Assembly: GCA_030680175.1 (NCBI GenBank)
Contig: JAUXWO010000025.1
Location: forward strand, 1-63,088
DNA length: 63,088 bases
DNA from: Vicinamibacterales bacterium
GTDB lineage: Bacteria; Acidobacteriota; Vicinamibacteria; Vicinamibacterales; UBA2999
Reading direction: 5' to 3'
In this document: positions 5,191 to 56,213 of the stretch, one piece after another
Numbering within the stretch: position 1 is the first letter of the stretch
Layout of the letters: each line of letters starts with the position of its first letter
The notes under the pieces: generated by a model
What the model was told of the DNA's origin: nothing
What the model saw: only the letters and a program-made list of their open reading frames with translations
The model's database searches: none
Translations under genes and position numbers: made by a program

Positions 5191-5799
5191 ATGCGTGACG
5201 AGCTGTTTGCCCGCAACCGCGCCTGGGCGCGCGCATTGACCGAGCGCGATCCCGATTTCTTTTCCCGCCTGTCGCACCAGCATGCGCCGGAGTACCTGTG
5301 GATCGGGTGTTCTGACAGCCGGGTCCCGGCCAACGACATCGTGGGACTCCTGCCGGGGGAGCTGTTCGTGCACCGCAACGTCGCGAACGTCGTGGTGCAC
5401 GCAGACCTCAATTGCCTGTCGGTGATTCAGTTCGCGGTGGAAGTGCTGAAGGTCAAGCACATCATCGTGTGCGGCCACTACGGATGCGGCGGCGTGCGGG
5501 CGGCGGTCGACGGCGGCCAGCACGGGCTGATCGACAACTGGCTGCGCCATGTGCAGGACGTGGCGCGGCAGCACGACACGGACCTCCACGCGCAGCCGAC
5601 CTTCGACGCGCAGGTGGACCGTCTGTGCGAGCTGAATGTGATCGAGCAGGCCCGCAACGTCGCCTACACGACGGTGGTGCAGGATGCCTGGGTGCAGGGC
5701 CAGGCCGTGTCGGTCCACGGCTGGATCTACCGCGTGAGCGACGGCCTGCTGCACGACCTCGGCGTGTGCTTCACCGGCCCCTCCGACCTCGTCCGCTAG
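5191..5799 (+). CDS. can: Beta-class carbonic anhydrase
   Basis: Interconverts CO2 and bicarbonate with a zinc ion. The 202-residue protein shows the complete beta-class site: Cys40, Asp42 and Arg44 in IGCSDSRVPANDIVGL, and His96 and Cys99 in VCGHYGCGGVRAAV. Spacing matches E. coli Can (C42, D44, H98, C101). The ATG at 5191 is chosen because it gives the canonical N-terminus (MRDELFARNRAWAR). It lies one base after the methyltransferase stop. The gene ends directly against the inverted-repeat element at 5800-5997. Confidence 0.96.
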   Translation: MRDELFARNRAWARALTERDPDFFSRLSHQHAPEYLWIGCSDSRVPANDIVGLLPGELFVHRNVANVVVHADLNCLSVIQFAVEVLKVKHIIVCGHYGCGGVRAAVDGGQHGLIDNWLRHVQDVARQHDTDLHAQPTFDAQVDRLCELNVIEQARNVAYTTVVQDAWVQGQAVSVHGWIYRVSDGLLHDLGVCFTGPSDLVR

Positions 5800-5997
5800 G
5801 AGGGGTCTGGCACCGTGACATCGGAATCGCAGCAGTTTCTGCGATCTGGCGCTGTGGAAAACTGGACAGGAAGTGTTTGAAGCGGGGGGCACCCCGCAAC
5901 TCATCTCGGCCCGTTTCTCGCCTCATCCCCAGCCACTTTTCCACAGCCCAGATCGCAGAAACTGCTGCGATTCCGATGTCACGGTGCCAGACCCCTC
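5800..5997. mobile_element. Long inverted-repeat element (MITE/REPIN-like)
   Basis: Two arms of 62 and 61 bases (5800-5861 and 5937-5997) are inverted copies that differ by a single inserted base, around a 75-base centre. The arm begins GAGGGGTCTGGCACCGTG, and each arm holds its own small hairpin, ATCGCAG/CTGCGAT. The centre contains the small hairpin GCGGGG-GGCA-CCCCGC. The element exactly fills the space between the stop codons of the convergent can and EF-G-like genes. No ORF or transposase lies inside, so it would be non-autonomous. It may also act as a bidirectional terminator. Confidence 0.8.
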
Positions 5998-8094
5998 TCA
6001 GGCCTCTTCTTCGACGGCGTGGCCCCGTTCGGCCTTGGCCGCTGCGATGATCTTCGGCTGGAGGTGCGTGGGCACCTCGTCGTAGTGGGAGTACTCCATC
6101 TGGTACGACCCGCGCCCGCCGGTGACGGAGGTGAGGTGCTGCTCGTAGGTGAGCATCTCCGACATCGGCACCTGCGCGCGGATGACCGTCATGGCGCCGC
6201 GCGTGTCCATGCCGGCGATGCGTCCCCGGCGGCTGTTGAGGTCGCCCATGAGGTCGCCCGCGAAGTCGCTCGGAGCGTAGACCTCCACCGTCATCACGGG
6301 CTCGAGCAGCGTCGGCCGCGCCTTCGACATCGCATCCTTGAAGGCCAGCGAGCCGGCCGTCTTGAACGACAGCTCATTCGAGTCGACGTCGTGGTACTGC
6401 CCGTCGTACAGCGTCACGCGGATGTCCACGACGGGGCAGCCCGCAAGATAGCCGCGCAGTCGTGACTCCTGGACGCCCTTCTCGACCGCCGGGATGAACC
6501 CGCGCGGAATCGAGCCGCCGAAGATCTCGTCCACGAATTCGAACTCGCTGCCGCGGGGCAGCGGCTCCATCCGGATCTTGCAGTCGCCGAACTGGCCGTG
6601 GCCGCCGGTCTGCTTCTTGTGGCGTCCGTGGGCCTCCACCTTGGCCGTGATGGTTTCGCGGTAGGCGATGCGCGGCGGTTTGAGGTTCACCTCGACGCCG
6701 AAGCGCCGTTTCAGCTTCGCGACGGTGACCTCGATATGGAGCTGGCCCTGGCCGGCGAGCAGCAACTCACCCGTCTGCGGGTCGCGCATGTAGCGGATGG
6801 TCCCGTCCTCCTCCTCGAGGCGGTGCATCGCGGTGCTGATCTTGTCCTCGTCGCCGCGGCTCTTGGGCTCGATGGCGTACGAGAGCACGGGGTCGGGAAA
6901 TACGATGGGCGCAAACGTCAGTCCGGCGGCCTTGTCGGCCAGCGTGTCGTTGGTGCGCGTGTCCTTGAGTTTGGCCACGGCGCCGAGGTCGCCGGCCTTG
7001 ATCTCGGGCACGTTCGCGGCCGTCTTGCCCTGCATCACCATCAGGTGGCCGAGCCGCTCCGGGTTGTCGCGGGTCGCATTGCGGGCCGAGGTGTCGGCCG
7101 TGAGCGTGCCCTGGTAGACGCGGAACATCGTGATGCGCCCGGCGAACTGGTCGGCCACCGTCTTCCAGACGAACGCCGCGTACGGCGCGCCCTCGTCGGC
7201 GGCGCGCGACACGACGGCGCCGGCCTCGTCCACGGCGGTGAACGGCCGCGCCGCGGGTGAGGGGAGGTAGGCGAGGATCGCGTCGAGCACGGGCTGGACG
7301 CCGATGTTCTCGAGCCCCGACGCGCAGACCAGCGGGAAGAGGCGGCCCGCGGCCGTGGCGCTCACGAGCCCGCTGGCCAGTTCCTCCTGCGTCAACGTTC
7401 CCGCGTCGAAGAACCGCTCCATCAACTGCTCGTCGGCCTCGGCCACCATCTCGATCAGCGTGTCGCGCGCGGCGGCGGCGGCCCCGGCCATCTCCGGAGG
7501 GATGTCCCCCTCGGTCATCGTGCCCGCGCCATCGCCGCTGAAGCGGCAGGCCTTCATGCGGACGAGGTCGACGACGCCGGCAAAGGCCTTCTCCTCGCCG
7601 ATGGGCAGCTGGATCGGGATGATGGTGCGGTGGCAGGACTGGCGGAGCGACTCCAGCGTCCGTTCCAGGGAGGCGCGCTCACGGTCGAGGCGGCTCAGGA
7701 CGACGAGGCGCGGGAGGCCGAGCTCATGCGCCGCCGCCCACGCCTTCTCCGTCTGCACCTCGGCGCCGGACACGGCGTCCACGACGACCAGGGCGGCGTC
7801 GGCGACGCGCAGGCCCGAGCGGACCTCGGCGAAGAAGTTGCCGAAGCCGGGCGTATCGATGAGGTTGATCTTCTGCTTGTTCCACTCCGCGTAGGCGAGG
7901 CTGGCGGAGAGCGTGTGCTTGCGGGCGACTTCTTCGTCGTCGTAGTCGGTGACGGTGGTGCCGTCGTCGACCTTGCCCAGCCGGTTGACCATCCCGGCAT
8001 CGAAGAGCATGGCCGACACGAGCTGCGTCTTGCCGCAGCCCCCGTGACCGACGACGGCCACGTTGCGGATGCTGGCGGCGTCGTAGACCTTCAT
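5998..8094 (-). CDS. EF-G-like translational GTPase (FusA2 type)
   Basis: A 698-residue protein with the full EF-G layout: G domain, domain II, and the III-IV-V region (GHGQFGDCKIRMEPLPRG, FVDEIFGGSIPRGFIPAVEKG). It is not canonical EF-G. The P-loop is GHGGCGKT (16-23) rather than AHIDAGKT. The G3 motif is DTPGF (80-84), with Phe where the catalytic His normally is. G4 is SRLD (134-137) instead of NKMD. This places it with the secondary EF-G paralogues (FusA2 or EF-G-like); the role could be ribosome recycling, stress or something else. A good promoter lies at 8138-8166. Confidence 0.85.
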   Translation of the reverse strand: MKVYDAASIRNVAVVGHGGCGKTQLVSAMLFDAGMVNRLGKVDDGTTVTDYDDEEVARKHTLSASLAYAEWNKQKINLIDTPGFGNFFAEVRSGLRVADAALVVVDAVSGAEVQTEKAWAAAHELGLPRLVVLSRLDRERASLERTLESLRQSCHRTIIPIQLPIGEEKAFAGVVDLVRMKACRFSGDGAGTMTEGDIPPEMAGAAAAARDTLIEMVAEADEQLMERFFDAGTLTQEELASGLVSATAAGRLFPLVCASGLENIGVQPVLDAILAYLPSPAARPFTAVDEAGAVVSRAADEGAPYAAFVWKTVADQFAGRITMFRVYQGTLTADTSARNATRDNPERLGHLMVMQGKTAANVPEIKAGDLGAVAKLKDTRTNDTLADKAAGLTFAPIVFPDPVLSYAIEPKSRGDEDKISTAMHRLEEEDGTIRYMRDPQTGELLLAGQGQLHIEVTVAKLKRRFGVEVNLKPPRIAYRETITAKVEAHGRHKKQTGGHGQFGDCKIRMEPLPRGSEFEFVDEIFGGSIPRGFIPAVEKGVQESRLRGYLAGCPVVDIRVTLYDGQYHDVDSNELSFKTAGSLAFKDAMSKARPTLLEPVMTVEVYAPSDFAGDLMGDLNSRRGRIAGMDTRGAMTVIRAQVPMSEMLTYEQHLTSVTGGRGSYQMEYSHYDEVPTHLQPKIIAAAKAERGHAVEEEA

Positions 8095-8166: not shown

Positions 8167-8186
8167 ACCAGCACGGCCGGCGCGCG

Positions 8187-8352
8187 GACGTACAAACACG
8201 AAGGACACGAAGGCCACGAAGACATCAAGAATGCGGGGAGAAACACGTGCGGCAACGGCTCACAGCAAGCCGAGAAGCGGCAACCGCCAACCAGAGGCAC
8301 ACGCGAAACCACGGGGCCTTCGTGACCTTCGTGTCCTTCGTGTTTGTCCGTG
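8187..8352. repeat. CACGAAGG paired-arm element, copy A
   Basis: Left arm 8187-8221 reads GACGTACAAACACGAAGGACACGAAGGCCACGAAG in pieces of the 9-mer CACGAAGGN. The right arm (8318-8352) is its inverted copy with two changes. About 95 bases lie between them with no gene. This is one of six copies in the window (the others start at 24807, 28791, 42831, 52118 and 55388), all intergenic. Translated, the arms give spurious YKHEGHEGHEG or FVTFVSFVFV peptides. Confidence 0.85.
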
Positions 8353-8364
8353 ACTGCGTTGGTC

Positions 8365-9657
8365 CTACTCGTAGCGCAGCGCTTCGATGGGGTCGAGGCG
8401 GGAGGCGCGCCAGGCGGGGAGCATGCCGAAGAAGATGCCCACGGCGGCCGAGAAGCCGAGGCCGAGGGCAAACGACCACCAGGGCAGCGAGATGGGGAAG
8501 CCCGAGGCCATGTTGACCAGCAGGCCGATCGCGCTGCCGCAGATGATGCCGATCACGCCCCCGATGCTCGTCAGCACCACCGCCTCGACGAGGAACTGGA
8601 ACAGGATCTCCCCGCGCCTGGCGCCAATCGCCTTCCGGACGCCGATCTCCCGGGTCCGCTCGGTCACCGTGATCGTCATGATCGCCATCACGCCGATGCC
8701 GCCGACCATCAGGGCGATCGACGAGATGACGACGAGCGAGAGCAGCACGGCCTGGGAGATCTGCTCCCACACCTGCAGAATGGCGTCCTGCGTGACGAGG
8801 TCGAAGTCGTTCGGCTGGTCCAGCGTCAGGCCGTGCCGGATGCGCATGATCTCCTCGACCTCGCGCATCGCGTCGTCGCGCGACACCCACTCGTGGGGCA
8901 CCACGGCGATCATGGCGCTGATGCCGCCGAAACGGCCCGGCGCCTGCGCCTTCTCCGATCCGAACTGCTTGCGGAAGGCCGTGTACGGGATGAAGACGAA
9001 GTCGTCCTGTCCGAGCCCGAACCCGCCGGCGCTCGGCCGCTGGCCGACGACGCCGACCACCGTGTACTCCACGGCGCCGATGCGCACGCGCTTGCCGATC
9101 GGATCCAGGCCGCTCTTGAGGAACAGGGCCTCGTACGGGCCGTAGCCGATGACGGCCACGTTGCGCCGCCGGTCGACTTCCTGGGCCGTGATGGACCGTC
9201 CGATGACGATCTTGGCGAAGTTCACGTCGACGTACGCTTCGCTCGCGCCGAACACGACCATCGGCTGGGTGCGCTGGCCCCGGTAGAAGATGCGCTCCTG
9301 GGTCGGGTTGCCGCCGGCGCCGAGCCATGTGTCGACCAGCCCCACGGTCGTGGCCAGGCGCTTGATGGCCTCGCCGTCGTCGACGGTCAGGTGCGGGCGG
9401 CGGAGCAGGTCCGTGAACGCCGCGCCGGACGAGAAGCTGAGCGCGCCGAACCGCTGCACGAAGATCGTCTTCGGCCCGAGCTCCATGATCGACGCCCGCA
9501 GCGATTCGTCGAAGCCGCGGATGAGCGACGTCATGCCGACGATCGACGTGATGCCGATGACGATGCCCAGCACGGTCAGCGCCGAGCGCATCTTGCTGGC
9601 GCGGAGCGTGTCCAGCGCCATGATGGCCGTTTCCTTCAGCAGCGCGAAGCGCATCAT
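8365..9657 (-). CDS. MacB-like ABC transporter permease (FtsX fold)
   Basis: A 430-residue permease with one N-terminal membrane segment (about 20-42, SALTVLGIVIGITSIVGMTS), a large periplasmic MacB-PCD domain (about 45-290) and three C-terminal membrane segments with the FtsX signature ERTREIGVRKAIGARRGEILFQFL. It ends WRASRLDPIEALRYE, a family hallmark. Such subunits work in tripartite export of peptides, lipids or antibiotics. It has no ATPase domain. I chose the ATG at 9657 because it overlaps the upstream stop as ATGA; 9654 is also possible. It is the last gene of the 12988-8365 operon. Confidence 0.9.
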   Translation of the reverse strand: MMRFALLKETAIMALDTLRASKMRSALTVLGIVIGITSIVGMTSLIRGFDESLRASIMELGPKTIFVQRFGALSFSSGAAFTDLLRRPHLTVDDGEAIKRLATTVGLVDTWLGAGGNPTQERIFYRGQRTQPMVVFGASEAYVDVNFAKIVIGRSITAQEVDRRRNVAVIGYGPYEALFLKSGLDPIGKRVRIGAVEYTVVGVVGQRPSAGGFGLGQDDFVFIPYTAFRKQFGSEKAQAPGRFGGISAMIAVVPHEWVSRDDAMREVEEIMRIRHGLTLDQPNDFDLVTQDAILQVWEQISQAVLLSLVVISSIALMVGGIGVMAIMTITVTERTREIGVRKAIGARRGEILFQFLVEAVVLTSIGGVIGIICGSAIGLLVNMASGFPISLPWWSFALGLGFSAAVGIFFGMLPAWRASRLDPIEALRYE

Positions 9658-24767: not shown

Positions 24768-24806
24768 CGGCGGCGAGACGCACGAACGCGAGACGTACAA
24801 CAACGA

Positions 24807-24999
24807 GACGTACAAACACGAAGAACACGAAGGCCACGAAGACGCCACCCGGCGCGAGGCCCAACATCAGGTACCTTCTGATGCCAGCTCCTGCCGTAGT
24901 AGTGACGCCGTGCTCGCTCGAATCGTTTGAGGTGCGGCTGTTAGTGGCCTGACTTGTGTGGCCTTCGTGGCCTTCGTGTCCTTCGTGTTTGTACGTGTC
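24807..24999. repeat. CACGAAGG paired-arm element, copy B
   Basis: Left arm 24807-24841 and inverted right arm 24963-24999 enclose about 120 bases without a gene, in the gap between the VKOR-DsbA gene and the ABC ATPase. The left arm reads AAGAACACG where the right implies AAGGACACG. A short extra copy of GAGACGTACAA precedes the left arm at 24790. Confidence 0.85.
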
Positions 25000-26804: not shown

Positions 26805-27066
26805 GTATCCGCAGATTACGCAGATTACGCAGATTACGCACCGCTGCGCCGCCTCGCGCGGGGCGGCCAGAGGCCGCCACGGTGTGGGCGGACGGGCCGG
26901 GAGATGAGCCATCCAGATCGCGCAGTGATGGTTCATCTCCCGGCCCGTCCACCCACACCGCAGCCGCCGGTCTCCGACCGGCGCCCGCGCGAGTCGGCCG
27001 GCGACGAGCAACACCGCATTGCTCCTCTGTGTCTTCTGCGTAATCCGCGTAATCTGCGGATGATTC
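26805..27066. repeat. ATTACGCAG paired-arm element with internal long hairpin
   Basis: Outer arms: left 26805-26840 has three and a half units of the 9-mer GCAGATTAC, and right 27032-27066 is the inverted form with some changes. Inside lies a 34-bp inverted repeat (26880-26913 with 26927-26960) with two mismatches, flanked by two smaller hairpins, GGCGGCC/GGCCGCC (26862-26878) and GCCGG/CCGGC (26966-26982). No gene is inside. It makes up most of the 307-base gap between the permease and the next gene. Confidence 0.85.
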
Positions 27067-28790: not shown

Positions 28791-28944
28791 ACGTACAAAA
28801 CACGAAGGACACGAAGGCCACGAAGGATGCAGAAGGGTCCCGGGTTCTCTCAAGACTTCTTCGCCAGGGACGCTGCCTTTGAAATCTCCAACTGACTTGT
28901 ATTCGGATCTCTTCGGGGCCCTCGTGTCCTTCGTGTTTGTACGT
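28791..28944. repeat. CACGAAGG paired-arm element, copy C
   Basis: Left arm 28791-28825 is intact. The right arm 28911-28944 is partly decayed (CTTCGGGGCCCTCGTGTCC). They enclose about 85 bases with no gene, between pilD and the histidine kinase. Confidence 0.8.
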
Positions 28945-42798: not shown

Positions 42799-42830
42799 GA
42801 CGTACGATCTGCTGACACGTAAGATCCGCT

Positions 42831-43027
42831 GACACGTACAAACACGAAGCACACGAAGGCCACGAAGGGCCTGTAAGTCCAACGTGCCTCCTTGACTCGG
42901 GGCCCGCAATGACGGACGAACTGAGACCTTCGTGGCCGGCTCTGGTTTCCCGCTCACAGTGGCAAGAAGCAGAGCTGAATGTTCTGGCCCCTTCGTGGCC
43001 TTCGTGTGCTTCGTGTTTGTACGTGTC
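42831..43027. repeat. CACGAAGG paired-arm element, copy D (perfect arms)
   Basis: Left arm 42831-42869 and right arm 42989-43027 are perfect inverted copies over 39 bases, including the AAGCACACG variant in both. Two 17-base units (ACGTACGATCTGCTGAC and ACGTAAGATCCGCTGAC) precede the left arm. The 119 bases between the arms hold no gene. Confidence 0.9.
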
Positions 43028-43055
43028 AGGTGAAGAGGTTCGGTCTGGCAAAAGA

Positions 43056-52117: not shown

Positions 52118-52221
52118 TACGGACAAACACGAAGGACACGAAGGCCACGAAGCATTCGACTCACTGGGGCGACCCCGACAAGCCTTCGTGGCCTTCGTGT
52201 GCTTCGTGTTTGGTACGTGCC
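52118..52221. repeat. CACGAAGG paired-arm element, copy E
   Basis: Left arm 52118-52152 and right arm 52182-52221 with only about 30 bases between, the shortest copy. The arms differ at one position in the second unit (GGACAC versus GCACAC). It lies between smc and the lipoprotein gene. Confidence 0.85.
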
Positions 52222-55969: not shown

Positions 55970-55985
55970 CGCTCGATTGTAGAAC

Positions 55986-56069
55986 GGGGAGTGGGTGGTG
56001 GGGAGTGGGGAGTGGGGAGTGGGGGATGGGTGGTGGGTGGTGGGGGGTGGGGGGTGGGTGGTGGGGGTT
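55986..56069. repeat. G-rich heptamer array (12 units), left arm
   Basis: Twelve exact 7-base units from GGGGAGT, GGGTGGT, GGGGGGT and close variants, 16 bases upstream (minus strand) of the cupredoxin ATG. The inverted C-rich array lies at 56128-56169. The motif resembles the cyanobacterial STRR1-type repeat. Confidence 0.9.
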
Positions 56070-56127
56070 GTCAGCAACCAGCTATCGGCGACCAGCTCGG
56101 CCTCCAGCTGAGAAGCTGATCGCTGCC

Positions 56128-56169
56128 ACTACCCACTACCCACTCCCCACTACCCACTACCCACTCCCC
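56128..56169. repeat. C-rich heptamer array (6 units), right arm
   Basis: Units ACTACCC, ACTACCC, ACTCCCC, ACTACCC, ACTACCC, ACTCCCC: the reverse complement of the G-rich family at 55986. The 58 bases between the arrays contain several CAGCT/AGCTG words and could form a cruciform. Confidence 0.9.
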
Positions 56170-56173
56170 ACTA

Positions 56174-56213
56174 CACGACGAAGGGCCGGCCTTGCGGCCG
56201 GCCCTTCGTCGTG
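56174..56213 (-). terminator. Perfect 18-bp hairpin after pnp
   Basis: 56174-56191 pairs perfectly with 56196-56213 around TTGC, 17 bases past the pnp stop. There is no long T-run, but the stem is strong. It probably ends the pnp transcript. Confidence 0.8.

Follow-up and report, generated by a model that had tools for sequence, protein, structure and literature searches.

The described repeats closest to the element analysed here are those that accompany RAYT-like transposases. TIRtrons, or TIRYTs, have been reported from Acidobacteria among others by Di Nocera and colleagues (2013, PMC3733652): a RAYT-like gene, whose product has an HUH motif and a tyrosine, lies within long terminal inverted repeats (TIRs), and the TIRs of some genomes make up repeat families of moderate abundance, many of whose members are dimers. 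REPINs are inverted doublets that form a long hairpin, are associated with a Y1 transposase and show compensatory changes on both sides (PMC3116915). Dimers of GTAG REPs are described as lying mostly at unidirectional and convergent junctions, in the convergent case no more than 20 bp from either stop; their ends often give a TAG stop, and both homodimers and heterodimers are on record (PMC3733652).

We analysed a 63,088-nucleotide stretch of DNA from a Vicinamibacterales bacterium (contig JAUXWO010000025.1), referred to below as the window. From repeated copies, ends shared with a transposase gene, the co-occurrence of element and transposase, and a near-empty site in a relative, we conclude that the element at 5800-5997 is very probably a non-autonomous, REPIN-like TIR dimer of a RAYT/TIRYT (HUH-Y1 transposase) system.

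The hairpin element and its site

The element and its neighbours are laid out as follows.

5191..5799, forward strand: carbonic anhydrase gene; its stop TAG abuts the element (start from a crude gene caller; longest open reading frame from 5047)
5800..5861, forward strand: left arm, 62 bases; foot GA followed by a GGGGTCTGGCACCGTGACATCG-type transposon end; RE type (defined below)
5802..5820, forward strand: end word of 19 bases, GGGGTCTGGCACCGTGACA; exactly this word stands at both ends of the transposase element on contig C62 of the same genome
5862..5936, no strand: loop or spacer, 75 bases
5937..5997, reverse strand: right arm, 61 bases; repeats the left arm in inverted orientation and is likewise of RE type
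5977..5995, reverse strand: end word of 19 bases, inverted
5998..8094, reverse strand: elongation factor G (EF-G) gene; its stop TGA abuts the element

The original prediction described a near-perfect 62/61 inverted repeat, its arms differing by one inserted base, that exactly fills the gap between two stop codons, and both points are confirmed. Fifty perfectly paired bases are followed by the extra left-arm base, C5850, and by 11 more perfectly paired bases; with the genes assigned by protein family scan, the gap between the carbonic anhydrase stop TAG (5797-5799) and the opposite-strand EF-G stop (5998-6000, TCA = TGA) is exactly 5800-5997. The sequence conserved in the family runs from the GGGG at 5802 to 5995, and the outer GA/TC is the variable foot. 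With two flanking bases included, the best inverted-repeat alignment is 66/65 bases long with 64 identities, the longest and top-scoring of the 28 copies described below. The element also heads the best 25 of the 72 inverted pairs in the window (at least 20 bases, arms at most 500 bases apart), where the perfect pair that follows it has arms of 41 bases. The RNA fold of 5790-6005 reaches -157.6 kcal/mol (z -16.5), whereas shuffled sequences average -76.2 and none of 200 does as well. In a REPIN each unit would have a palindromic core of its own; the window arms, folded singly, give stems of 7 bp at -9.0 and -8.1 kcal/mol, values without a shuffle control. Local alignment of the 71-base loop core found no convincing match in the DNA compared, the best score being 18 (without a shuffle control).

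Copies and transposase genes in the same genome

The arm word GGGGTCTGGCACC occurs exactly 35+36 times in the genome (4.98 Mb, 143 contigs), and if up to one mismatch is allowed the counts rise to 41+44, where the reversed control gives 5+4. Examination of 52 loci gave 29 paired arrangements. Of these, the doublet on the downstream side of the transposase element (C62:98906-98979) is kept apart, which leaves 28 elements of 71-225 bases. These numbers are lower bounds, because only part of the first-look candidates was scored (40 of 52 in the initial repeat search, 150 of 3081 in the model search). A covariance model was built on 24 of the 28 paired copies, the other four (C62:102090, C24:25030, C62:67357 and C31:32725) being left out of the model and of the structure count as oddly sized. 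It recovers 27 of the 28, namely the 24 by construction together with C31:32723, C62:67355 and C24:25028, misses C62:102090 and finds five additional copies at contig ends. Nine contig ends carry more matches (C6, C22, C23, C40, C43, C49, C65, C101 and C102); the C101 end and the C22 start agree in their inner sequence and probably belong to a single element. Single arms stand inside contigs in at least six places (C128:26609, C52:11068, C39:34053, C39:87530, C44:22030 and C68:92546).

The complementary arms measure 33-66 bases in 27 of the 28 copies, around a 19-base conserved end, and 21 bases in the remaining one; in these long arms, and in numbering only tens of copies, the family differs from REPINs as described. 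It differs too in the foot, the GT[AG]G of REPINs and canonical REPs being mostly replaced by GGAG: GTAG stands at 9 and GGAG at 22 of 55 feet, and the window copy has GGAG and AGAG. In control DNA, G[TG]A precedes GGGG at 2.1% of 3901 sites. The sequence CTGT[T/G]GAA, from the left part of the transposase element, recurs inside 16 of the 28 elements, compared with 8 occurrences in 400 kb of control DNA.

Three Y1_Tnp genes are present in the genome. One, on C62 (L061:3271-3897, 208 aa), lies between two inverted, perfectly matching 19-base copies of the end word, from C62:98173 to 98979, an arrangement like that of the TIRtrons. The arm start had been likened to terminal words of REP-associated (Y1) families, and it is indeed the word that bounds this RAYT-like gene. 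The encoded protein matches Pfam Y1_Tnp (PF01797) at 47 bits, above the cut-off, NCBIfam REP_Tyr_transpos (NF047646) at 67 bits, below the curated cut-off of 80, and, weakly, the solved TnpA-REP structure 4er8 (E 0.0049). In an alignment of 32 transposases (this one, 29 from relatives and the two other Y1 proteins of the genome) N73 is conserved in 30 and H74, H76 and Y136 in 31 each, in keeping with the HUH motif and tyrosine of TIRYTs; Y136 would be the catalytic tyrosine. The end in this genome, GGGGTCTG, is one base off the GGGGWSAS shared by TIRs in PMC3733652, a mismatch that does not decide membership because that paper gives the motif for some TIRs only. In its sequence, and in the genome that carries it, the element differs from the TIRs published there.

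The second Y1 gene (L060:3543-4624, contig C142, genome G000, 329 aa) is enclosed by a different, 47-base perfect inverted repeat (GGGGTCAGATCTTGA...), whose word recurs in two control-DNA gaps (L174:17595 and L172:3425). A separate repeat family for this gene fits the published pattern of one repeat family per transposase (PMC6006769). Around the third (L062:3205-4317, contig C1) we found no convincing inverted ends, the best being 29 bases at 72%.

The suggestion that the element is non-autonomous and belongs to a Y1 system of the same genome is thus supported, on sequence grounds, by 28 copies and a transposase gene with the same ends. We propose that a single kind of end (GGGGTCTGGCACCGTGACATCG..., whose foot is G[T/G]AG-like in many of the copies), present twice in inverted orientation, would form a long hairpin in single-stranded DNA, and that the C62-encoded transposase most likely recognises this hairpin, cuts its foot with the HUH/Tyr site and pastes the element elsewhere, the presumed route being single-stranded transposition. 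The E. coli enzyme is reported to recognise single-stranded REP DNA and to cut it at the foot (PMC3733652, PMC6006769).

Distribution among relatives and placement at gene ends

We searched 59 genomes, of which the window's own is the sole member of its genus. The arm word GGGGTCTGGCACC occurs exactly in four of them, its own included, and once each in the other three, a level that the reversed control also reached. The structure model, with 54 candidates scored per genome under strict filters, matches six of the 59 at E <= 0.001: its own, G020, G024, G025, G028 and G029, with one place each in G020, G024 and G028. The five other than its own are exactly the five with the best transposase scores, and their element matches lie away from the transposase loci. 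By our arithmetic five random genomes of 58 would coincide in one draw in 4.6 million if kinship is ignored, and the figure is weaker in reality because G024 and G029 share a genus, as do G020 and G028.

Inverted ends scoring above the best of 20 shuffles were found at 24 of the 30 transposase loci inspected, own included. The closest transposase relative, in G025 (57%), has homologous but altered ends, GGGGCCTGGCACGGT; this word occurs exactly nine times in G025, twice as the transposase ends and twice as a pair 75 bases apart, and with two mismatches it shows a modest excess only (36+31 vs 22+23 for the reversed control). Element and transposase ends agree in G025 and also in G029 (CGGGACTGGCACCTTAACAT; ACGGGGACTGACCCCG), and in G024 the ends of the transposase at L116 match the elements in part. 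The best transposase of G028 (L117) has quite different ends, and a second one (L140) has GGGGTCTGTCACC ends that fit the elements; quite different ends also bound the best transposase of G020 (L118). The comparison covers the relatives' element loci other than L156 and L159. Beyond these genomes, the 19-base word has one exact match in genome_contigs, an unpaired arm in an Acidobacteria MAG, which is about chance level (roughly 2 expected for a 19-mer in 257 Gb, by our arithmetic); it has none in viral contigs and no match in plasmids, in collections that may omit the window's own or very near records.

We compared the EF-G junction at 30 loci, own included, which were the best among 55 genomes that had a match. 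The carbonic anhydrase neighbour is kept at four: the window, L089 (G033), L092 (G024) and L100 (G029). In L100 two bases separate the two stops, without an inverted repeat. In L089 and L092 the gap holds a short-word inverted repeat whose letters are unrelated to the window element (arms of 30 bases at 87% and 17 bases at 100%, respectively). Hairpins at this junction therefore vary between genera and species, or are missing; because the relatives belong to other genera, the 2-base gap serves as a proxy for an empty site. The element is accordingly neither unique in its genome nor kept at this locus by the relatives examined, the two observations that the original prediction had held would speak against it. 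The short-word repeats in the EF-G 3' gaps of L089 (1400-1479) and L092 (2003-2060) are inverted arrays of the word ATCTGAGATCTGA.

Among 27 classifiable copies, 17 lie between convergent, 8 between co-directional and 2 between divergent genes by a crude codon model, compared with 49, 257 and 43 of 349 control junctions (binomial p 6.5e-9 for the convergent excess). The control comprised the window, including the element's own junction, and 20 stretches of 20 kb; genes were called with a codon model trained on the open reading frames of the window, so the strands of weakly scored flanks are uncertain (e.g. C23:19357 left, C128 left, C82 right). At the 42 gene 3' ends adjoining copies, the stop comes before the element in 19, as on both sides of the window copy; it straddles the boundary as TA|G in 9, falls within the element in 13 and after it in 1, and the element supplies the stop at 22 of the 42. 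Ten of the 13 inside stops are a TGA at bases 15-17 of the end, giving the protein tail RGLAP; this deeper TGA (10 ends, against 9 for the boundary TAG) sets the family apart from GTAG REPs. Convergent placement beside stops and stops provided by the repeat ends are already published for those REPs (PMC3733652), and the pattern is therefore support rather than news.

In one copy (L048, C98:151552-151678) the right arm has T for G; the usual TGA is lost in the neighbour's frame, and the frame continues past the element.

Family scans covered 20 of the 22 element-stopped gene ends. The profiles are reached to their ends or nearly so in dUTPase (143/143), MurNAc-6-P etherase (290/291), IMPDH (345/345) and NuoN (519/524), and gross truncation of neighbours by the element is not seen where the scans bear on the C-terminus. 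For two of the 20 no family was assigned, and several matches, such as TPR repeats and a metallo-hydrolase that matches only in its first half, say nothing about the C-terminus.

The 17 of 27 copies at convergent junctions, the very stable fold and the presence of other fold-back families 3' of genes in this genome would also suit a host-maintained, immobile hairpin at convergent 3' ends, acting as a bidirectional terminator, an mRNA 3'-end stabiliser or a ribosome-stalling control; in E. coli, REPs that lie no more than 15 nt from a stop codon are reported to exert translational control by ribosome stalling (PMC12306157). The element has no T-run, however, and there are no terminator-like sites in 5600-6200; we reject an intrinsic terminator on this ground and consider a host-maintained hairpin unlikely as a whole, although a host 3'-end role could have been acquired after insertion. 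Under the transposition reading, the copies that persist would be those next to the 3' end of a gene, chiefly at convergent junctions, since they cause little damage there and can contribute a stop of their own; we propose that this survival reflects selection, helped by element-borne stops. Any effect of the element on transcription is one that we infer.

Other inverted-repeat families are present. Among control gaps of 40-500 bases, an inverted repeat scoring at least 20 is present in 11 of the 30 convergent ones (window element included), in 13 of the 131 between co-directional genes and in 1 of the 35 divergent ones, counts made without a shuffle control. A second family, with arms like ACGTACAAACACGAAGGACACGAAGGCCACGAAG, occurs in the window at 8167-8372, 24805-24999, 28798-28938, 42829-43029 (the 42829/42989 pair having 41 perfect bases) and 52124-52212; its words recur in control co-directional and convergent gaps and in none of the divergent gaps listed. 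More fold-back arrays of short words lie at 55985-56177 and 26807-27061 of the window and at L182:5636-5806 (GTGGGTAGTGGG; ATCCGCAGATTACGC).

Pairing of the arms and origin of the doublets

Of the 1198 cells in the 24-row alignment, 91.3% are paired and 104 unpaired. Cells changed on both sides number 111, against 37.4 in shuffles (0 of 500 as high) and at most 23 when the arms are slid by 1-3 columns, and private changes mirrored in both arms include C-G to G-C and A-U to U-A swaps. At positions 21-44 the arms of one copy are 0.854 identical, compared with 0.645 between copies (none of 10,000 permutations as high). Such strong covariation, together with two sub-threshold Rfam matches to long hairpins, could be taken for a conserved structured RNA gene. 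We regard this reading as extremely improbable: the matches are to miRNA-precursor families far under their gathering scores (69.7 vs 137; 67.2 vs 110), a long hairpin alone can raise such scores, 5600-6200 contains no promoter-like site, and the relatives examined do not keep the element at this locus. The Rfam matches themselves we set aside as long-hairpin artefacts below the gathering score.

The arms are of two kinds, which match the two ends of the transposase element: ACACG (LE) and ACATC (RE). Eighteen copies are RE/RE, eight LE/LE and two mixed, where 12.4 mixed would be expected (2 of 100,000 shuffles as low). We stress that the permutations for arm identity, covariation and LE/RE pairing take the copies as independent; copying of whole elements would violate this, and in that case a few founding events could give the same homodimer excess.

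If the C62 transposase element had given rise to a MITE through a simple internal deletion, the product would carry one LE and one RE arm. One of the two mixed copies fits this well: C62:102090-102314, 225 bp long and 3 kb from the transposase, whose arms are the best matches among 56 to the transposase element's ends, looks like a true deletion derivative. The remaining copies, the window's included, look instead like duplications of one transposon end. With 26 of the 28 copies LE/LE or RE/RE, the window copy among them, deletion is weakened as the origin of most copies, and we think it very unlikely to account for this one.

For the origin of the dimers we tentatively put forward a route to which we give a minor share of belief, namely that fold-back copying of one transposon end, and not an internal deletion in the parent, gave birth to the mini-elements or keeps them: a nicked end would fold back and be copied onto itself, yielding a perfect inverted duplication. 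If true, this would explain the LE/LE and RE/RE homodimers, the private changes mirrored in both arms, and the mirrored arms of the window copy beyond the usual 42-50 bases. The same outcome may have come from a few fold-back events followed by whole-element copying, from arm-to-arm conversion, or from compensatory changes under selection for pairing.

The result is a further RAYT/TIRYT system defined at the sequence level. It comes with a candidate cognate transposase, has diverged counterparts in sister genera and includes one copy with very long arms. The homodimer excess (26 of 28) opens the origin of inverted REP doublets to direct test. The window element would thus be an ordinary kind of bacterial repeat in an unusually clean copy, with a hint as to how doublets form.
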